Part shown: piece after piece, positions 1 to 10,258 of the stretch | Layout of the letters: each line of letters begins with the position of its first letter | Position numbering within the stretch: the first letter of the stretch is position 1 | NCBI RefSeq assembly: GCF_004216565.1 | Contig: NZ_SGWV01000007.1 | Coordinates: 930,001 to 994,000, forward strand | Length of the DNA: 64,000 nucleotides | Direction of reading: 5' to 3' | From: Sphaerotilus mobilis | GTDB lineage: Bacteria > Pseudomonadota > Gammaproteobacteria > Burkholderiales > Burkholderiaceae_C | Translations under genes and position numbers: made by a program | Notes under the pieces: model-generated | Seen by the model: the letters and a program-made list of their open reading frames with translations, nothing else | Database searches by the model: none | Told to the model about the DNA's origin: nothing

Positions 1-3000
1 GGCGAGGCCTGCGGCAAGGTCAGCTTCCTGTTCTTCGACATCGAAGGCTGCGTCGAGATCACGCTGTCGGGGCCGGAGAAGTCCTCGCCGATGCCCACGC
101 TGGTCGAGAAGCTGTCGCTCAAGAGCCGCTCGCCGGCCCTGCTGGCGGGCACCGGCGTGGACCGCGGCCTGGACGTCAGCCTGGGCGACGCGCTGGCACG
201 TGCCAGCCTGCCCACGCGCGAGGAACTCGCCGGCATCGTCGTGCCGATCGATGCGGTGCCGGTGGTCTCGATGACGCTGACACCGGACGTCGCGCCGGGC
301 CTCGCCATCACCGGCCTGGGCACCAGCCTGAACGCGCCGGCCGGCCTCTTGCCCGACCCGGGCGGTGGCAGCGGCCTGTCCGAACGCGGTGGCGAGAAGT
401 ACCAGTACCGCATCACGGCGGTCGCCCTCGAACGCATCGACCCGGTCAGCGGTGGCGTGCTCAGCCCGGCGGTGGACGGCAGCAGCGCCCCGGCGCTGTG
501 GTGGACGCTGCGCGACGCCACCGAGGCCAATGCCAACGCCCAGCTCGCGCTGCTGACCTGGGAGCCCACGCCGGCCACCAAGGCGATCGAAAAAACCGAG
601 CGCCTGACCGAGACCATCCGCGAGCGCTGGGGCCGCGTCTGCGAGCCCGCCGCCCCGGCGGCCGAGGTGCTGTGGACCTTCCGCTGGGAACCGTATGGCC
701 CGTCGGCCAGCGGCTGGGACCTCGAAGGCGTGGCCTGGCCCGACCCGCCCGGCACGCGCCGCAGCGGCCGGCCCGACACCGGTCTGCACGTCAGCGAACG
801 CTGGCGTTCCGGGGATGCGACGCTGGACATGCAGCGCGGCATCGTCCCGGCCCTGGTCATCGGTGGCCTGGTGGCGTGCTGGCATGGGCCGGCGGACGGC
901 GGCGGCACGACGGTGCCGGGGACCGGCGTGGGCGCCACCGTCGGCCCGACCCTGTCGACCGGTGTGCGTCAGCTGGTCCGACCGCTGATCCGCCCGCAGG
1001 AGCAGGACGCCCCGCGCCTGCTGGTGGGCGGCCTCGGCCCGGTCACGACCGAGCCGACCGCCGGAGGGGGTCAGGTGCTGGCGGCCGACGATCCGGTGGC
1101 GACCCGTTTCATGCGCCGGCCCGAGGCCCTGCCGCTGCGCATCAGCCCGGCGCTGCATGCCAAGGTGGCGGCAACGCTGGCGCTCGAGCAGGCGGCCCGG
1201 GTCGATCCGGTCACGAACCTGCTCGACCGCGCCGACGGCCTGGACGCCGCCCGCCTGATCGCGCTGGCCCGCACGCTGGGGAACGTTTCCGGCGATGCCG
1301 GACGCACCGACCCGCCAGCGCCCGCCCCGGCGCAGGACGGCAACAGCCGCGCGGCCACCACCGGATCGACCGGCGCGCGCTGCGAGGTCCGCGTGCTGCA
1401 GGCACCGATGCTGGACGACGGCCGGCCGGTGGCGATCGGCAACCCGGCGCTGGCCGAGACCATCGCCCGCCAACTGAAGCAGCGCGGCGTGACACACGGC
1501 CAGCTCGATGACGTGGTGGTGGTCCACAGCGGTGCCTTCGTGCGTGGCCATTTGCTGCTGTTCGCCGACCGCGAACGCACGACCGACCAGACGCTGATCG
1601 TGCGGCTGCTCGACGCCCAGGGCGTGGAGCTGTCGCGCGAGGTGGTCGACCCCAACGACCGCGTGCCGCCCAAGCTGTTGCCGGCGCGCTGGACCCAGGC
1701 CGACGGGCCGTGGATCGACGACATCGCCGAGCTGCTGCGCTGGGGCATGCAGCGCAAGCTGATGGCGGTGCTGCTCAACCTCGGCAAGGACAACCGCAGC
1801 GAGCGCGCCGACCGCATCGAGATCGGCACCCTGCGGCGCGAGGGCCAGAACCCGCCTCAAGACCTGCCCAAGAACCTGGAACCGGCCTACTTCGTCGGCG
1901 CGTTCTCGGCCTTGCGCGGTGGCGAGGTCGGCCGGCAGGACTGGGACGACCGCCAGATCACGCACGACCAGGCGGTCATCACCCAGGCGGTTGGCCCGGC
2001 CAGCAGCGACTGCGCCCTGCTGTTCGCCGACGCGACCTACCGGCTGCGGGTGGTCTGGGAAGGCGTGCGCCCGAGCGATGCCAAGACGGCGGCGGCCACG
2101 CAGGACTTCTGGTTCCGCACCGACCGCATCGGCCGGGCCGACGGCGATCCGCTCAAGCCCGTGTTCGAGCAGACCGAGCCGCTGCCGGTGCGGCTCGATC
2201 CGTGGATGCTGGTGACGCTGCCGGCCGACCAGGAGGCGCAGGCCTTCTACGAGGAAGCGCCACGGCTGGTCTTCAACACCCACGACGTCGACCGCCTGTT
2301 CGCGGCCTACGGCCATGAGCTGCGGGTGCGCTTCCAGGCCGCCAGCTCGCGCCACCCGGTCGCGCGGCCGGGTGTGCCGCATCCGCTGCCGATCACCGCG
2401 CCCTTCCTGGCGCCGGTCAAGGCCACCATCCTGTCGCCCTGGGAAGAGGCCGCCACCGAGGTGCTGGCCAGCGATGCGCCGTGCGTGCCGGTCGACGAGG
2501 ACCGCATCCGCCACAGCGTCATCGACATCCCGATCCCGCTGGAGCCCTACACCGACTACATCCTCGATGTCGAACTGCTGCCGACCGGCGCGGCGGCCGA
2601 TGCGCGCGGGCCGAGCATCTACCGCCGCCACTTCTCGACCGGCGGCTACGCCACCCGCGCCGGCCTGGCCGGCTCGATCCAGGGCGTGCAGCCCACCGCG
2701 CGCGCTTGCGCGGTGGGGGCCTTCGCCGGACTGCCGGCGCTGTTTGCCGGCCGGGTGCCCGAAGGTGCCGAGATCGACGAGCAACTGCGCGCCAAGGGCA
2801 TCGAGCCGCTGGGCCTGCCGACGCAGCCGCGCATCGTCGTGTTCTGGTCGCAGGCCGGCAGCAGCCCGCCGCAGCCCGAGGCGGTGCTGATCGACGCCAC
2901 CGAGCCGCTCTGGCGCACACGCCCCTACCCGGCCAAGGTGACCGACAGCAGCGGCCCGGTCGACGCAAGCCGCTGGGTCCTGCAGGACACCGAATGGCTG

Positions 3001-3228
3001 CAGCTGCAAGACGCCAGCGCGGCCGGCGTGCTGGCGGTCGACGGCATCGTCAAGGCACCGGGCCTGCAGCGCGCGCTGGTCGTGCTGGCACCGCACGGTC
3101 GCGGCCGGCAGTTGCGGCTGGACCTGGTGGCGATCGGCTTCCCAGGCCTGCCCTTCCTGGGCGCGGCCGAACAGCGCACCACCGTGCTCGACCTGCGGCT
3201 GGCCCGCGCCCCGTGGGAGGAGGACTGA
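1..3228 (+). CDS. Giant uncharacterised beta-rich protein, C-terminal 1075 residues (5' end outside window)
   Basis: The reading frame is open from base 1, so the start lies upstream and only the C-terminal part is visible; the ATG at 91 is internal. I do not recognise the family. The first visible residues form an alternating hydrophobic strand (KVSFLFFDIEGCVEITLSG) that looks like the end of a beta-rich domain. Near visible residues 680-715 and 847-885 there are Ig-like strand patterns in which a 'Y.L.V' strand is followed by an aromatic 'F.T' strand (DFWFRTD, RRHFSTGG). The rest is rich in Pro, Ala, Gly and Trp, with no transmembrane segment. It ends 4 bases before the next large gene, behind a GGAGG at 3217-3221, so the genes are probably co-transcribed. 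A DUF6603-type or injection-machine-associated protein is a guess only. Confidence 0.75.
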   Translation, partial: GEACGKVSFLFFDIEGCVEITLSGPEKSSPMPTLVEKLSLKSRSPALLAGTGVDRGLDVSLGDALARASLPTREELAGIVVPIDAVPVVSMTLTPDVAPGLAITGLGTSLNAPAGLLPDPGGGSGLSERGGEKYQYRITAVALERIDPVSGGVLSPAVDGSSAPALWWTLRDATEANANAQLALLTWEPTPATKAIEKTERLTETIRERWGRVCEPAAPAAEVLWTFRWEPYGPSASGWDLEGVAWPDPPGTRRSGRPDTGLHVSERWRSGDATLDMQRGIVPALVIGGLVACWHGPADGGGTTVPGTGVGATVGPTLSTGVRQLVRPLIRPQEQDAPRLLVGGLGPVTTEPTAGGGQVLAADDPVATRFMRRPEALPLRISPALHAKVAATLALEQAARVDPVTNLLDRADGLDAARLIALARTLGNVSGDAGRTDPPAPAPAQDGNSRAATTGSTGARCEVRVLQAPMLDDGRPVAIGNPALAETIARQLKQRGVTHGQLDDVVVVHSGAFVRGHLLLFADRERTTDQTLIVRLLDAQGVELSREVVDPNDRVPPKLLPARWTQADGPWIDDIAELLRWGMQRKLMAVLLNLGKDNRSERADRIEIGTLRREGQNPPQDLPKNLEPAYFVGAFSALRGGEVGRQDWDDRQITHDQAVITQAVGPASSDCALLFADATYRLRVVWEGVRPSDAKTAAATQDFWFRTDRIGRADGDPLKPVFEQTEPLPVRLDPWMLVTLPADQEAQAFYEEAPRLVFNTHDVDRLFAAYGHELRVRFQAASSRHPVARPGVPHPLPITAPFLAPVKATILSPWEEAATEVLASDAPCVPVDEDRIRHSVIDIPIPLEPYTDYILDVELLPTGAAADARGPSIYRRHFSTGGYATRAGLAGSIQGVQPTARACAVGAFAGLPALFAGRVPEGAEIDEQLRAKGIEPLGLPTQPRIVVFWSQAGSSPPQPEAVLIDATEPLWRTRPYPAKVTDSSGPVDASRWVLQDTEWLQLQDASAAGVLAVDGIVKAPGLQRALVVLAPHGRGRQLRLDLVAIGFPGLPFLGAAEQRTTVLDLRLARAPWEED

Positions 3229-3232
3229 CACC

Positions 3233-6200
3233 ATGGCCCACCGCATCGTCGACCCCACCCGGCTGCTGCTGACCGGCGGCCTGATCGACTGGACCGCCGT
3301 GTTCCGCCGTCAGGCCGCCAACAAGCTCAAGGCCCGCAGCCCGAAAGACATCGCCGCCGAGCGCCAGCTCAAGGGCACCCGGCTGGTCCAGCTGCGCTGG
3401 CTGACGGCCGAAGGCGTGGGCCTGCCCACCGAGCCCTTCCAGGTCTGGCGTCGGCCGTCCTTGCCCTTCGAGGGCGAGAAGCCCTTCGACCCGCCGTCGA
3501 CCACCTTTTTCGGCATGACGCTGCGGGTGTTCGATGCGCCGCGCCTGACGGTGCGCTTCCAGATGAGCACCACCAACCCGGCCGGCGGCAGCGTGATCGC
3601 CTTCTCGGGCGCGCCGCTGGGCTCGGGCATCGTCGGCTCGCAGGTGCTGAACGCGGCGGGTTCGGCGACCGCGCGCCTGGCCGCGCCGCAGATCAGCTGT
3701 CTGCTGTGCAGCCCCGGCGTGACGGTCAGCGGCCTGGCGGGTGTCGCCGACGGCATCCAGGACGACGGCCACTGGCAGCTCGTCGAGGTGGTGGGCCTGC
3801 CCGTGGACAAGCGCTTTTCCGGCGTCTTCGACCTGGCCGCGCCGCAAGGCCTGGCCGGCGCGCTGGGCGACCCGATGGCCGCCGCGCTGGACCGCTTCCG
3901 GCGCGGCGCGCCCTTCTATGGCTGGTGGCCACAGGTCACGCCCACGCTGGCCGCGCCGCCGTGGCAGCTGGCCGATCCGGTGGCGATGCTCAAGCTGATC
4001 CGCGCCGAGATGCTCGAACCCATCCGCGACATGGTGACCACCCTGTTGCCGCCCCAGCACCGCACGCATGAGCTGGTGCGAAGCCTCGCCTCGGCCAGCG
4101 GTGGGCCGTCCGCCACGGCCCGCTTCAAGCCGCTGAGCACGCTGCTGTTCGGCGCCGGCACCGACCCGCTGGCCTCGCTGATGACCGGCTATGGCACGGC
4201 GCTGGAGGACATCGACCTGCCGCCGATCAGCTTCTCGGACCGGCAGTTCTTCGGCGACGCCAGCCGCAGCGACTGGGACTACATGGTCACCGCACGCTGG
4301 TCACGCGGGCTGGACCATGCGTCCGAACCCCTGGAGCTGGCCGCCCTGCTGATGGCGCCGAAGTTCGCCGTGCCACCGCCGACGCCGGCCAATGTCGCCG
4401 CGCAGCTCGACGGCCTGCGCACGCCGGCAAGCATCGACGCCGACTACCACGGCGTCGTGCGGGTCAACTGGGACCGGCCGTCCGGCCTGCTGCCGCTGCG
4501 CGTGGGCAGCTACGCCTTCGTGCGCGCGGGCATCGCACCCGCTGCGCCGCTGGTCGCGCTGATGGACAAGCGCCCAAACGACGTCGCGCTGCAGCCGATC
4601 GGGGCCTCCGGCGCGCCGGATTCGTCGCCCGAGCCAAGCCGCTGGGCGGCGCTGGACGAGCGCTGCGCGGTCGCCACCGCGCCCGATCCGAACCGTGTGC
4701 TCTACGGTCTGGCCCACCAGGATCTGCTGGGGCTGTGGAGTGACTGGTCGACCGCCGGCCTGACGCTGGCCGAACCGCCGGTGCGGCTCTTGTCCATCCT
4801 GTCGGCCCGGCTGGAGGTGACGCCCAGCGCCAGCGGCCCCTGCCCGGCCACGCTGGAGATCGAGGTCAGCTGGGACTGGTCCTCGCGCAGCCCGGAGCGG
4901 CTGGAGCTGGTCGGCCGGCTCTATGCCCAGACCCGCCTGGGCGATGCGCCGGCCGACACCAGCGTGCCGGCCGGCCTGGCGATGGCGGCCGGCGGCGGCG
5001 TCGGGCCCGTGTTGCGTGTGCAGTTCGGCGGTGGCGCGTCCGGCGCACCGGCGCTGGTGGGCGCCGTGCCGCCGGGGGCCACGGTGGCGCTCGAATACGT
5101 CGCCTTCGATGGCCGCACGCTGGTGGCCGCCCCGCCGGCCAGCGCCGGGCCGCGGCGTTATCGCCTCAGCGTGTCGGGCCTGCGGCTGGACTTCGACGCC
5201 GCGCCGCGCATCGGCCTGGCGCTGTGGGGCCGGGGCGTCGAACACCGCTGGCCGCAGCGGGTCGGCGACTGGAGCGCCCAACCGGCGGTGGCGTCCACGG
5301 CCGACCCGCGACCGCCGGTCATCGCCGTCGCGCACGAGGACGTGCTGCTCGCCAGCCTGGCCGACGCCAGCGGCCTGCACCACGCCCGCCTGAGCTGGCC
5401 GGCGGCAGCGGGCGCAGCCGGCTACTTCGTCTACACCTGCACCGAGGAAAAGCTGCGCGCGGACCGAGGTCTGGCATCACCGGCCAAGTCGCTGACGTTG
5501 TCCGAGCGGCTGACCGCCTTGCGCAACGCCTTTGCGGCCGACCCGGACCGGCGCTCCTTCACGCGGGTCAACAGCACGCCGATCACCGGCCTGTCGACCC
5601 AGGTGTCGCTGCCGCGTGGCAGCAAGGAGATCCACCTCTACCTCGTGATCGGCAGCAGCGCGGGCAACGTCGAATCGGCCTGGCCGACGCTGGCCGACCC
5701 GCTGCTGCGCCAGCGGCCGATCGCCTATGCCGCGCCGCAGGTGGTGGTGCCGATGCCGCCGGACCTGGAGGTCTCGCGCGGCCGCGACGACAGCACCGAC
5801 CCGCCCACCTTCCATGCCGCCGTGACGGTGCGCGGCAAGCCCGGTCCACGCGTGACCCGCATCGACCTGCACCGGGTGCGGGTGGCCACCGCCACGCTGG
5901 AGCTGGACATGATGGGTCCGCCAGCGGTGACGCTGACCGGCTCGGCCGGCGCATGGGTGGCCACGCCGCAGCTGTCGACCGAACCCGGCATGGACCAGCC
6001 GTTGGCCCGCATCAGCGGCCGCGACGCGGTCGAGGGCTCGTGGAAAAAGGTCTGGTACCGGGCCGTGGCCTGGAGTGCCGACGACCCGCCGCGCGGCCTG
6101 CTCGGCGGCCGATCCGGCCCCAGCGCGCTGCGCGAAGTCGTGGTGCCGCCGGCCGGCCCGCCCGACCTGTCGACCCTGTCCGGCGGCTGGCCCGGCGGTG

Positions 6201-7030
6201 CCGACCTGCTGGCCCTGCAGGTCGATGCCACCACGCTGGCCCCGGTGGCCGAGACGCCACTGGGCCCGCACCGCATGCGTGTCGAACTGCTGGCCGAGGC
6301 GGCTGATGGCAGCAGCCGGGTGCTGTTCCGCCACCCGGTCGAGCCCGGCCCGGATGGCCGGGCCGACCGGCTCGATCACGTCCCCGACGTGGCGCCGCCG
6401 CCCGGCACGCCGGGTGTCTGGCAGGCACCGGCCGGCGCGCCGAAGACCACCCGGCTGCGGCTGCAATGCCAGCGTCCGGACGCCGACAGCGCCTTGCGCG
6501 TGCGCTTCCTGCTGGTCGACCCGCTCGGCCGCGCCCGCGAACGCGAGCTGCTGATCGCCGCCGGCCTGCCACTGCCGGCGCCGGACATCCTGGCCTTCTC
6601 GATCCGGCACCGGCCCGCGCTGGGCATCCTGGCGCAGTTCCTGACCTCGGCGCTGTTCGAGCCGACCAGCGCCGGACCCTTCGTGCTGACGATCCGCTGG
6701 GTGCCGTCGCTGTCGCCGCTGTCCACGTTGCTGCCGCTGTTGCCAGCGTTCCCGCCACCCTTCCCGACCCCTCGGCCGACGCCGTTCCGGCCGATCCGCA
6801 CCGGGCCCGTCGCACACCTCAGCATCGCCTTGCCGGACCTGCGCCGGCTCGCGCCGGGCGAGGATCTGATGCTCGATCCGGCCGCCATCCCGGTGCGCCG
6901 CCTGGCCGACGCAGGCGATGCCGAAGGTGCCATCGGCCTGGCGCTGCGGGGTCGCCACGGCGGCCGGCTGTCGCTGACGCTGCGCGGGCCGGACGGCCGC
7001 GTCGCCACCTTGTCGCGCACTCTGCGTTGA
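3233..7030 (+). CDS. Giant uncharacterised protein with fibronectin/Ig-like segments (1265 aa)
   Basis: This is the second gene of the giant-protein cluster. Its ATG is preceded by GGAGG at 3217-3221 and lies 4 bases after the upstream stop. No catalytic motif, signal peptide or transmembrane segment is visible. Around residues 495-510 the sequence LWSDWST sits at the end of a fibronectin-type-III-like segment, and around residues 715-825 a second such segment contains 'RLSWPAAAGAAGYFVY' and later 'LPRGSKEIHLYLVIG'. A proline-rich stretch lies near residues 1176-1197. The protein is probably a multidomain scaffold or binding protein acting with its neighbours, which is inference from size, packing and domain style. 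It could belong to a contractile-injection or surface complex, but nothing in this window proves that. Confidence 0.75.
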   Translation: MAHRIVDPTRLLLTGGLIDWTAVFRRQAANKLKARSPKDIAAERQLKGTRLVQLRWLTAEGVGLPTEPFQVWRRPSLPFEGEKPFDPPSTTFFGMTLRVFDAPRLTVRFQMSTTNPAGGSVIAFSGAPLGSGIVGSQVLNAAGSATARLAAPQISCLLCSPGVTVSGLAGVADGIQDDGHWQLVEVVGLPVDKRFSGVFDLAAPQGLAGALGDPMAAALDRFRRGAPFYGWWPQVTPTLAAPPWQLADPVAMLKLIRAEMLEPIRDMVTTLLPPQHRTHELVRSLASASGGPSATARFKPLSTLLFGAGTDPLASLMTGYGTALEDIDLPPISFSDRQFFGDASRSDWDYMVTARWSRGLDHASEPLELAALLMAPKFAVPPPTPANVAAQLDGLRTPASIDADYHGVVRVNWDRPSGLLPLRVGSYAFVRAGIAPAAPLVALMDKRPNDVALQPIGASGAPDSSPEPSRWAALDERCAVATAPDPNRVLYGLAHQDLLGLWSDWSTAGLTLAEPPVRLLSILSARLEVTPSASGPCPATLEIEVSWDWSSRSPERLELVGRLYAQTRLGDAPADTSVPAGLAMAAGGGVGPVLRVQFGGGASGAPALVGAVPPGATVALEYVAFDGRTLVAAPPASAGPRRYRLSVSGLRLDFDAAPRIGLALWGRGVEHRWPQRVGDWSAQPAVASTADPRPPVIAVAHEDVLLASLADASGLHHARLSWPAAAGAAGYFVYTCTEEKLRADRGLASPAKSLTLSERLTALRNAFAADPDRRSFTRVNSTPITGLSTQVSLPRGSKEIHLYLVIGSSAGNVESAWPTLADPLLRQRPIAYAAPQVVVPMPPDLEVSRGRDDSTDPPTFHAAVTVRGKPGPRVTRIDLHRVRVATATLELDMMGPPAVTLTGSAGAWVATPQLSTEPGMDQPLARISGRDAVEGSWKKVWYRAVAWSADDPPRGLLGGRSGPSALREVVVPPAGPPDLSTLSGGWPGGADLLALQVDATTLAPVAETPLGPHRMRVELLAEAADGSSRVLFRHPVEPGPDGRADRLDHVPDVAPPPGTPGVWQAPAGAPKTTRLRLQCQRPDADSALRVRFLLVDPLGRARERELLIAAGLPLPAPDILAFSIRHRPALGILAQFLTSALFEPTSAGPFVLTIRWVPSLSPLSTLLPLLPAFPPPFPTPRPTPFRPIRTGPVAHLSIALPDLRRLAPGEDLMLDPAAIPVRRLADAGDAEGAIGLALRGRHGGRLSLTLRGPDGRVATLSRTLR

Positions 7031-7046
7031 GTTGCCGGAGACCGCC

Positions 7047-10000
7047 ATGCCCGACCTGATGTCCCCCCAGACCGTGCTGACCCCGGGCGATGCCGCCAGC
7101 CAGTTGCAGTCGCGCGGCCTGGACGCGCTGGGCCTGGTCGCACCGGCGCTGGCAACCGGCTGGGCCACCAGCACGCCGGCCGGCGCCGACCTGGACGCCG
7201 ACGCGCTGCGCCTGACCCTGAACGGCCCGCGCGCGCCCTTCAACGCGCTCGGCCGCACGCTGGCCGCTGCCCCGCTCTATGCCGACGCCAGCGGCGCGCC
7301 ACTGGCCGGCCCGGTGCGCGAACTGCGTCTGCATCCGGAATCGGCCAGGCGGCTGGCCCGGCTGGTCGAGCAACGGTTGGGCGCACCGCTGATCCGGCCA
7401 GTGCCCGTGGCCATGCTGGTGCATGGCGTGCCAGCCCCGCCGGCCGCGCCACAACCGGTCGACCTGTTCGAGGCCGGTGCGCCGCTGGGCCTGCCGGGTT
7501 CGCTGGCGATCAGCTTCCACGATGCCCGCGGCCTGCCGATCTGCCCGCTGGCGGTGGCGGCCCTGTTTGCCGACCTGCTGAGCGCCTTCCCGGCGCTGGG
7601 CCACGGCGACGCCACGATGCCGGCGCGCGGCGCGTCAGGCGGGATCGACGGCATCGTCGCGTCGTCACCGGCCGCGGTGCGCCTGCATGTGGTCGACCCG
7701 CACGGCCGCGTCTTCGTGCCGACCCGGCCGGAGGCGCGCCTGAAGGTCGTGGCCAGCACCGGCGTCGAGGTCCAGCCGGTGCCGGACGGCGGCCTGCTCA
7801 CGCTGGCCACCGGCCTGAGCCTGGGTCGGGCGACGGCGGACGCGGCGGCCGACACCGCCGCCGCCCACCCGCTGCACTGGGGCTGGGGCCACCACAGCAC
7901 GCTGGCGCGCACGGCCTTGAGCCCACCCGCCTTGCCGGCCGGCGTCAACCTGCCGCGCCAGTTCCTGCGCGTGGTCGCCGTCGACCTGGCCTGGCACCTG
8001 CGTGGCAACCGGGGCGACAGCGTCATCGCCAACGTGCCTGGCGACGACGGCGCGGTGCCCGACTTCGCGCTGCCGGTGGTGCGCAACGCGGTGCCGAACT
8101 TCGACTACCTGAGCGACGGCATGGACGTGCTGGGCGCCTTCGCACAGGCCGCCACCGCCTTCCCGCCGGCTGGTGTTGATGTGTTGGCGCTGTTGTGTTC
8201 GCCGGCCATCGACCCGGCCCTGGCCTTGCCGCCCGGACCGGGCGCGGCGGGCAGTTGGCCGGCCTTCCCCGCGCCCAACCCGGGTGCTGGCCTACCAGCC
8301 TCGGCCGATGCCACCACCGGCTTGGCAGCGGCCTTCCGAGCGCCGGGCGACGCCCCCGACGCCCGGCTGGACGTGGTCGTCGACATCGCCGCCGACGCGG
8401 TGCCGGCCGGCACGCACCTGCGCGTCTACCCGCGCCGCTTCGTGCAGATCGACGCGATCGACGGCGAGCAGCCGTCCTTCATCCGGGCCGACGGCGGCGC
8501 GGCCATCGCCCAGGCTGGCCAGCCCAGCCGCATGCTGCTGCGCAACCCCTACACGCTGGCCAGCGCCGCGCCACTGCCGTCGCCCGCGCTGCTGCTGGTC
8601 GACGTGGTGGCGGTGGGCCGCGACGGCCAGCGCCGGCTGCATTCGGGCATCGAGCTGACGGTGTCGGCCACGACCACCTCGTTCACGCCCGACCCGGCCG
8701 CCTTTGGCGGCGAGGCGCTGTTGCAGCGGCCGGCGGTTGCCGCGCTGTTGGCGGCCTTCGGCAGCACGGCCGTCGCACCGGCCTCGCTGTTTGGCATCGC
8801 GCCGCCGACGCCGCCAATCGGTGGCGCGCCGGGCAACTTCCTGGACCTGATCCGGCGCCTGGCCAACGAGACCAGCGCGCCGCGCATCGGCCCGCACCTG
8901 CCGACCCAGGGCCGTTTCGACACCGTGCTGGCGCTCGGCGCGGCACCGGCGGCCGGCCAGCCCCTGGCCTGGCAGGCGGTGCTGACCGGTGCGCGCTGGA
9001 CCGAGGAAAGCCGCAGCGCCCGGCCCGAACGGGCCGACCCCGGCAACCCGCCCGGTCCGGATCTGCATGCGGCCGGCGTGCGGGTCGACGGCCAGCTGGC
9101 GCAGGACCTCGCCCTGCATGCGCTCAAGCGCGCCCAGCCGGTCATCCCGCTGGGCGCGACGACGCCGGGCTGGCTGGTCGCGATGGGTGGCGCCACCTGG
9201 AACGACGCACCGGCCGACGCCAGCGGCACGGTCTCGGCGGTGATGCTGGAGACCATCGCCGCCTTCTGCGACAGCCCGGAGCTGGGCCTGTCGGCCATTC
9301 CGATCCCGCAGCCGGCCGACTCGATCCAGGGCGCGGTCAACGCGCTCGCCGGCCTGCTGGGCGTGAGCGCCCCCACGCTCAACCTGGCCAACGAGGCCCG
9401 CCTGAAGCGCGCCTTGCAGCGCGAGATGGTCACCGCCCGGCGTGGCCAGCGCGATGCGCTGTGGTCGCTGCTGCGCGCGGTCGAACAGGCGCGCGAGTTC
9501 GTCTACCTCGAAGGCCCGGCCTTCGCCCGCACCGCCCGCCCGAGCGGCACGCCGCTGGCCCATGAGGTCGATCTGGTCGAGCGGCTGCGTGCTCGCCTGG
9601 CCGCCAATCCGCGCCTGAAGGTGATGGTCTGCGTGCCGCGCTGGCCGGATGTCGACCCGGCCTTGGCGCCGTGGGTGCGCACCGCGCTGGCCCACCGCAA
9701 GTCCGCCATCGAGACGCTGACCTCGCAGGACCGCCAGCGGGTCGCCGCCTTCCACCCGATCGGCTTCCCGGGCCGGCCGGCCGTGCTGCGTTCGACCGTG
9801 GTCATCGTCGACGACGTCTACGCCCTGGTCGGCACCAGCCACTGGCGTCGCCGTGGCCTGACCTTCGACGGCGGCTGCGACATCGCCAGCATCGACCGGC
9901 AACTGGACGCGCGCGGCCGCTCGACCGGCATCGTGCGCTTCCGCCAGGAGCTGATGGCCGCCAAGCTGGGCATCGCGCTGCCGGCCGGTCCGGCCGACAG

Positions 10001-10220
10001 CACGGCGCTGTGGACCCGGCTGGCCGAACCGGAAGCCGCCTTCGACCTGCTGGCCGACCTGTTGGCGCAAGGCGGTCTGGGACGCTGCAGCCCCGTCTGG
10101 GCCGGCCCGAGCGACACCCGCGTGATCGCGCAGACCGATGCCCGGGCAGATCCGGACGGCGTCGACGCGGACGGCACCCGCCTGTTCAGCGACCTGGTCG
10201 GCTTGCTGGGGTCGGCCTGA
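7047..10220 (+). CDS. Giant protein with C-terminal degenerate phospholipase-D-like domain (1057 aa)
   Basis: I chose the ATG at 7047 because CCGGAG lies 7 bases upstream; a TTG at 7032 would add five residues. The first 750 or so residues are unrecognised and rich in Ala, Pro and Gly. Residues about 800-1000 resemble a PLD domain: an amphipathic helix plus 'AREFVYLEGPAF', a 'LKVMVCVPRWP' strand, then 'VVIVDDVYALVGTSHW'. In PLD enzymes this last block is HxKxxxxD...GSxN. Here H is R915, K is T917, and only D922 of the triad remains, with H932 in place of N. The domain is therefore probably non-hydrolytic, or the family uses other residues. The gene closes the three-gene cluster and its stop lies inside a perfect hairpin. 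Confidence 0.75.
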   Translation: MPDLMSPQTVLTPGDAASQLQSRGLDALGLVAPALATGWATSTPAGADLDADALRLTLNGPRAPFNALGRTLAAAPLYADASGAPLAGPVRELRLHPESARRLARLVEQRLGAPLIRPVPVAMLVHGVPAPPAAPQPVDLFEAGAPLGLPGSLAISFHDARGLPICPLAVAALFADLLSAFPALGHGDATMPARGASGGIDGIVASSPAAVRLHVVDPHGRVFVPTRPEARLKVVASTGVEVQPVPDGGLLTLATGLSLGRATADAAADTAAAHPLHWGWGHHSTLARTALSPPALPAGVNLPRQFLRVVAVDLAWHLRGNRGDSVIANVPGDDGAVPDFALPVVRNAVPNFDYLSDGMDVLGAFAQAATAFPPAGVDVLALLCSPAIDPALALPPGPGAAGSWPAFPAPNPGAGLPASADATTGLAAAFRAPGDAPDARLDVVVDIAADAVPAGTHLRVYPRRFVQIDAIDGEQPSFIRADGGAAIAQAGQPSRMLLRNPYTLASAAPLPSPALLLVDVVAVGRDGQRRLHSGIELTVSATTTSFTPDPAAFGGEALLQRPAVAALLAAFGSTAVAPASLFGIAPPTPPIGGAPGNFLDLIRRLANETSAPRIGPHLPTQGRFDTVLALGAAPAAGQPLAWQAVLTGARWTEESRSARPERADPGNPPGPDLHAAGVRVDGQLAQDLALHALKRAQPVIPLGATTPGWLVAMGGATWNDAPADASGTVSAVMLETIAAFCDSPELGLSAIPIPQPADSIQGAVNALAGLLGVSAPTLNLANEARLKRALQREMVTARRGQRDALWSLLRAVEQAREFVYLEGPAFARTARPSGTPLAHEVDLVERLRARLAANPRLKVMVCVPRWPDVDPALAPWVRTALAHRKSAIETLTSQDRQRVAAFHPIGFPGRPAVLRSTVVIVDDVYALVGTSHWRRRGLTFDGGCDIASIDRQLDARGRSTGIVRFRQELMAAKLGIALPAGPADSTALWTRLAEPEAAFDLLADLLAQGGLGRCSPVWAGPSDTRVIAQTDARADPDGVDADGTRLFSDLVGLLGSA

Positions 10221-10240
10221 ACGCAGGCATGCGTTCAGGC
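10215..10240. terminator. Perfect hairpin between convergent genes
   Basis: An 11-bp perfect inverted repeat (GCCTGAACGCA / TGCGTTCAGGC) with a GGCA loop overlaps the stop codon of the third giant gene at 10218-10220. It sits between convergent genes and lacks a T-run on either side, so it may act as a processing or pausing site rather than a classic intrinsic terminator. Confidence 0.5.
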
Positions 10241-10258
10241 CGGGGCTCAAGCCTTCGA

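Follow-up and report, generated by a model that had tools for sequence, protein, structure and literature searches.

Three large adjacent genes, here designated g1, g2, and g3, occupy the first 10.2 kb of the window, that is, the whole 64-kb stretch of Sphaerotilus mobilis DNA that was analyzed (C1:930001-994000; genome of 4.65 Mb). All three lie on the plus strand, with intergenic gaps of 4 and 16 bases and with Shine-Dalgarno-like sites in front of g2 and g3 (table 1). The first gene, g1, starts at C1:925768, 4.2 kb to the left of the window, and its full product has 2486 aa, of which residues 1-1411, including the OmpA-like domain and the larger part of the strand meander described below, fall outside the window. 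Downstream, a hairpin overlaps the stop codon of g3 and is not followed by a T run; beyond it, ordinary genes are found on the opposite strand. Thus, the tight packing, the upstream continuation of the first gene and the sharp end of the cluster at a hairpin, all proposed in an initial annotation of this DNA, were confirmed.

The dN/dS ratios (nonsynonymous to synonymous substitution rates) against Leptothrix discophora, with 88-92% amino acid identity, were 0.20 for g1, 0.23 for g2, and 0.19 for g3. All three genes are therefore under purifying selection, and the possibility that they are chance open reading frames is ruled out by these ratios of about 0.2 together with the conserved gene order.

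The initial annotation could assign the proteins to no nameable family, and this holds: the window part of g1, g2, and g3 had no match in Pfam, NCBIfam, or PADLOC up to E = 1, and full-length g1 had none in Pfam or NCBIfam. A Pfam search of 39 g3 sequences returned just two weak matches, each in a single member (best E 0.005). The literature search turned up no description of the trio, but such a search cannot reach a nameless family through its sequence. None of the tested families accounts for the trio as a whole, while its parts are distantly linked to known folds.

Conservation and Distribution of the Trio

Species genomes were scanned with six g1 relatives, which yielded 61 loci in named genomes. 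These were examined with profiles of g1, g2, and g3, and a locus was considered testable if at least 1 kb was present after the preceding gene; genes were called with a simple GC-position script, which is weak in low-GC genomes. The g2 gene follows g1 in 50 of the 54 testable loci, and of the 48 loci testable for g3, 43 have it after g2. Whether homologues of the three genes occur together had been set in advance as a test of the initial annotation, and they do so: the full trios are in the order g1-g2-g3 on a single strand in 43 out of 43 cases. They belong to six phyla, namely Pseudomonadota, Actinomycetota (including Kribbella and Streptomyces), Acidobacteriota, Bacteroidota, Gemmatimonadota (metagenome-assembled genomes only), and Myxococcota, and one full trio is carried by a megaplasmid of Rhizobium tropici. 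The trio very likely represents a real conserved three-protein unit, and its products may assemble into one complex.

The exceptions are of different kinds. Among the four loci in which g2 was missed, L063 is an artefact of the distance rule (g2 is present), L043 and L075 seem to be degraded copies, and L086 has an unrecognized gene in this position. The latter, on a plasmid of Paracoccus albicereus (L086:17955-21296), encodes 1113 aa directly after g1, has no match to the g2 profile and may be a far-diverged g2. Since the five loci in which g3 is missing (L054, L055, L057, L063, and L065) group together in the tree of g1, in a clade that spans actinomycetes and Granulosicoccus and keeps g1-g2, a two-gene form of the unit exists, in which no g3 follows g2.

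The copies in L043, L052, L074, and L075 carry frameshifts or deletions, and in L017 a remnant of g3 is left. This suggests that the unit can be lost, though assembly errors are possible. In Tateyamaria, a single frame of 508 aa (L075:9926-11449) is recognized by the profiles of g1 and g3 alike, as would be expected if the central part of the operon had been lost.

The tree of the g1 core (46 rows) includes seven phyla, the seventh being Nitrospirota, with one contig that ends inside g1. The phyla are mixed in this tree (17 changes of phylum label are needed, the minimum being 6), which suggests horizontal transfer, mixed labels alone being no proof of it. Among close relatives, the unit is sporadic. 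Of 200 family genomes, 7 matched g3, the source genome among them: four full matches, a diverged trio (G066), a remnant (G168), and an ordinary PLD-like protein (G175), the last two not being trios. At the level of the order, g2 matched in two of 300 genomes, again counting the source genome. Among 299 genomes of the phylum, the g3 profile gave 10 matches, where the whole model was covered solely by the source genome and the other nine covered the phospholipase D (PLD) part only. These samples overlap with the named loci, as G153, G363, and G066 are the same genomes as L048, L035, and L085, respectively. The trio is absent from both genomes of the same genus, in which the right-hand neighbors are kept and the matching site holds other genes. 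A phage or prophage origin was rejected, as no relatives were found in phage records (g3 query) or in viral contigs (g1 and g3 alignments).

Predicted Folds of g1 and g3

The alignment of g3 consists of the window protein and 38 of the 39 usable loci; L053 was omitted as a near-copy, and fragments such as L052 and L090 were not used. The model of the window protein built from these 39 rows (pLDDT, the predicted local distance difference test, 84.9; pTM, the predicted template modeling score, 0.90) has a mixed alpha/beta fold, so the beta-strand style that the initial annotation ascribed to all three proteins does not suit g3. In a Foldseek search, the model resembles the phospholipase D superfamily, that is, human PLD1 and PLD2 and the Streptomyces PLD, with 361-554 aligned columns and E-values from 3e-10 to 1e-6 among the 50 matches listed. 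The match to PLD2 has an E-value of 3e-10 over 539 columns with a TM-score by target of 0.40, and the range for PLD1 and PLD2 is 0.37-0.42. On the other hand, g3 is about twice as long as these enzymes and the root mean square deviation is high (6-14 Å). Judging by the length of the alignment, g3 probably has both PLD lobes.

The catalytic residues of the HxKxxxxD site are lost. In the C-terminal lobe, position 915 is never His and position 917 is never Lys in any of the 39 sequences, while all of them retain Asp 922 and the Asp that follows it, as well as Gly 929 and Arg-Gly 936-937. At the proposed site of the N-terminal lobe (306-313), His is replaced by Phe in 33 of 39 and Lys by Arg in 35 of 39, and one exceptional sequence has His at 306 and Cys at 308. 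The string H.K....D occurs in 0 of the 39 sequences. Because the catalytic His/Lys pair is lost in 39/39, a binding role is more probable for g3 than an enzymatic one. With regard to the nuclease- or lipase-fold tail of the initial annotation, the fold itself has a counterpart in the predicted PLD fold of g3, whereas the catalytic pair is absent; an active phospholipase or nuclease tail is unlikely, given the lost HxK. A comparable situation is described for the FAM83 proteins, stated to be confined to vertebrates, whose PLD-like domain has no PLD activity and serves as an anchor (PMC6008594). As a pseudo-PLD, g3 may be likened to them by analogy, not by membership.

The core of g1 was modeled on the Leptothrix orthologue (1174 aa) with an alignment of 46 rows. 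The mean pLDDT is 73.6 and the pTM 0.49. A helix (model residues 311-329) is followed by 33 strands at model residues 333-899, 27 of which have at least eight residues and were used for a test of hydropathy alternation. Their mean alternation is 2.65, against 1.26 ± 0.18 for shuffled strands, and 14 of the 27 alternate individually at p < 0.05. In the numbering of full-length g1, a hydrophobic stretch at 866-884 (Kyte-Doolittle 2.07) is predicted to be helical; in the predicted layout, a hydrophobic helix comes after the OmpA-like domain and ahead of the strand meander. This stretch and the long, partly amphipathic strand region make the earlier statement that the proteins have no membrane segments doubtful for g1.

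In Foldseek, the ten matches of the g1 core at E < 0.001 are to an S-layer complex (SDBC), SlpA, LptD, and FimD, with TM-scores of 0.14-0.28. The strand region is read as a partly amphipathic barrel-like or curved sheet, as far as the model goes, rather than as an outer-membrane barrel. A viral fold for the g1 core was discarded, the respective fold search having given two matches at E < 0.001 with TM-scores of at most 0.11.

OmpA-like domains contact peptidoglycan through a conserved Asp (of the GHTD motif) and an Arg. The start of the g1 core matches, at profile positions 20-89, the OmpA/PAL domains of the OprF, PAL, and YfiB structures (best E 5.1e-5, 5u1h). Reading of the alignment indicates that the Arg is mostly retained and that the Asp is replaced in most relatives. 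Unlike those domains, the copy of g1 is embedded in a protein of 2486 aa that has no obvious signal peptide; in g1-g3, no obvious Sec signal peptide was seen by eye and hydropathy, a dedicated predictor not having been run. These predictions suggest that g1, or the unit, binds membrane or envelope.

Table 1. Features of the g1-g2-g3 Operon, in Window Coordinates
Feature	Position	Strand	Remarks
g1	1..3228	+	Open at left edge; 1075 C-terminal aa of 2486
End of g1 core (aligned and modeled, to about residue 1720)	1..927	+	Holds conserved segment CGKVSFLFFDIEGCV
Shine-Dalgarno-like site of g2, GGGAGGAGG	3215..3223	+	Within the 3' end of g1; from sequence
g2, 1265 aa, without recognized family	3233..7030	+	Conserved directly 3' of g1
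Shine-Dalgarno-like site of g3, GGAG	7037..7040	+	From sequence
g3, 1057 aa from ATG, predicted pseudo-phospholipase D	7047..10220	+	Predicted PLD fold without catalytic His/Lys pair
Proposed HKD remnant, N-lobe of g3	7962..8009	+	F306-x-R308...D313...G320-N321; placed by inspection only
HKD remnant, C-lobe of g3	9789..9869	+	R915-x-T917...D922-D923...G929...RRG...D941
Hairpin, 14-bp stem	10212..10225 paired with 10230..10243		13 Watson-Crick pairs and one G-U; -27.4 kcal/mol

Genes Flanking the Trio

The initial annotation expected more of the system outside the window. This stands for the rest of g1, but not for further components: the flanks examined, which end some 3 kb beyond g3, hold no additional gene that accompanies the trio widely, and the missing part is therefore mainly the rest of g1. 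Additional conserved components were rejected, as no cluster of flanking genes exceeds 10 of the 61 loci and the Pfam families of the flanks show nothing enriched.

A gene of the metallo-beta-lactamase (MBL) fold is located near the trio in three lineages, and the MBL profile matches 3 of the 61 named loci besides the source genome. In the source genome and in Leptothrix, it lies upstream of g1 together with a divergent contractile-sheath gene. The MBL of the source genome matches the defence models LmuA (E 2.7e-51) and Avs1a (E 9.5e-32). In Brachymonas, an MBL gene of the LmuA/Avs1a kind adjoins g3, and the gene ahead of this MBL has a C-terminus that is named CHAT-like on the basis of motifs, without Pfam support. 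In Pseudomonas PS862 (L068:5221-9699), g1 is preceded by three consecutive genes, for a patatin (Pfam 8e-21), a protein with an HEXXH motif that is unmatched in Pfam, and an MBL.

The pair of an MBL pro-nuclease and a protease is a known anti-phage module according to Tuck et al. 2025 (PMC12799240). Compared with the Avs1a, LmuA, and canu modules, the MBLs of the source genome and Brachymonas match the LmuA/Avs1a models and retain H-x-D-x-D-H. On the contrary, no known sensor component was recognized beside the MBLs of the trio, a systematic search for one not having been made, and 58 of the 61 loci have no MBL by profile within the stored flanks. As for the constituents of Avs1, Lamassu, and canu systems, a protease-like partner is found in two lineages.

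The sheath gene (C1:920213-921913, minus strand, 566 aa, locus L003) lies about 8-10 kb to the left of the window, divergent from the MBL gene, and matches Phage_sheath_1 with an E-value of 1.8e-11. It is 3.9 kb upstream of g1, is the sole Phage_sheath_1 match in the genome and has an orthologue upstream of g1 in Leptothrix (L030). Of the contractile-injection neighbors that the initial annotation proposed to look for, a sheath gene is thus present here. The sheath profile, which was built from one sequence and could miss distant sheaths, matches one of the 61 named loci besides the source genome. A search for the tube family PF06841 gave no match, the controls being silent as well.

Possible Function of the Unit

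The reading that we prefer, with a probability of roughly one in three, is an envelope- or lipid-binding platform with a pseudo-PLD partner, most likely acting in biological conflict (anti-phage or inter-bacterial) and equipped with optional effectors. According to this proposal, the products of g1, g2, and g3 would form one large complex in which g1 would use its strand region and OmpA-like domain to dock on the surface of a membrane or envelope, g2 would be the connecting scaffold, and g3 would serve as a sensor or anchor that binds a phosphodiester ligand (a nucleic acid or the headgroup of a lipid) but does not cleave it. The MBL-fold, protease-like, or patatin genes may be optional effectors in some lineages, and it is because such genes adjoin the trio there that a conflict platform seems the likeliest role. 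We infer the conflict role from this minority of loci and from the patchy spread of the unit. A narrower version appears unlikely, that is, a widespread, undescribed immune or conflict platform with the envelope-docked, amphipathic g1 and the scaffold g2, in which the dead PLD of g3 would sense damage of membranes or nucleic acids and, in some lineages, activate the neighboring MBL pro-nuclease through an adjacent protease.

Several observations weigh against the preferred reading. No neighbor is common to most loci, the top flanking cluster being short-chain dehydrogenases (10/61), and the commonest Pfam families of the flanks are metabolic, transport, and signaling ones, a composition for which there is no background rate. 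The MBL gene is separated from g1 by three minus-strand genes in the source genome and by one in Leptothrix, and the MBL of PS862 belongs to a different subfamily (LmuA 2.4e-14 over 94 aa). In the flanks that were read, no nucleoside triphosphatase (NTPase) sensor was recognized, none having been searched for systematically. A defence scan of 118 flanking proteins (loci L030-L071, from 132 listed), again without background rate, gave at E 1e-10 three matches to LmuA, two each to mad3 and mad8, and one each to PDC-S01 models and AriA. The phylum labels of the g1 tree are more clustered than shuffled ones (shuffle mean 24.2; a value as low in 0 of 200 shuffles). Finally, the pTM of the g1 model is only 0.49 and the TM-scores of its ten best matches in the Protein Data Bank (PDB) do not exceed 0.28.

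The same features of g1 may be explained by a surface or secreted assembly, in which g1, shaped as a giant barrel or as a sheet resembling an S-layer, would bind peptidoglycan through its OmpA-like domain and be decorated by g2 and g3. The matches to the S-layer complex, SlpA, LptD, and FimD, the OmpA-like domain, and the alternating strands (14/27) are consistent with it. Nevertheless, it is doubtful in view of the low TM-scores, the replaced GHTD Asp in most relatives, the lack of an obvious signal peptide by eye (no predictor having been run), and the presence of the unit in Actinomycetota, for instance in Kribbella and Streptomyces. The trio may also be part of an extracellular injection particle derived from a contractile tail and released by lysis instead of Sec. 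The sheath gene close to g1, with its orthologue in Leptothrix, points in this direction, as do the giant size of the proteins and their lack of obvious signal peptides. But such a particle is improbable: Phage_sheath_1 has a single match genome-wide, the tube search was empty (its controls were silent too), and the sheath profile, which may overlook remoter sheaths, matches one of the 61 loci. Phage records yielded no relative of g3, and viral contigs, at the sensitivity used, none of g1 or g3. A complex that carries or bridges lipids for metabolism or storage would combine an apolipoprotein- or LptD-like, hydrophobic-faced sheet of g1 with a headgroup-binding pseudo-PLD of g3. ApoB100 and LptD among the Foldseek matches of g1, the PLD fold of g3, and the often metabolic flanking genes argue for it; the flanks, however, vary between loci, and the sporadic spread and the apparently degraded copies speak against a housekeeping role, so that this explanation is rather improbable.

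The initial annotation also named DUF6603 (PF20248), on which no literature was found, among the things to look for near homologues. Plain membership is ruled out by the absence of a profile match: HMMER gave none to g1 at E = 1, and the source genome has 0 matches. The one link is a weak profile-profile signal in the strand region of g1. In hhalign, the g1 core against a set of three DUF6603 domains had P 5e-4 (probability 31), whereas the g2 control had P 0.9; against single DUF6603 proteins, P was 3.7e-4 for G500 and 0.17 for G503. A relationship with DUF6603-type giant-protein operons would agree with the lower of these values and with the neighborhood of the DUF6603 genes in G500 and G503, which includes further large genes. 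It is improbable, though, since the probabilities are just 31-36, the operon partners differ, and none of the DUF6603 companion genes reached P < 0.05 against g2. The DUF6603 proteins of loci L094-L099 (G568, G500, and G503) are longer than 3100 aa, and where they stand beside other large genes, as in G500 and G503, they apparently form a separate type of giant-protein operon.

Whichever function the unit has, an operon of 14 kb whose order is kept in six phyla and whose three products in the source genome are outside Pfam and NCBIfam suggests that bacteria possess a machine without a name, one that occurs sporadically but across a very wide range. Two of its parts would strike any specialist as unusual: a pseudo-PLD of the size of g3, and the 2486-aa g1, in which an OmpA-like domain and a barrel-like meander of strands are combined in a protein with no obvious signal peptide. 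The clade without g3 and the lineages with a linked MBL are natural comparisons for the function of the unit.

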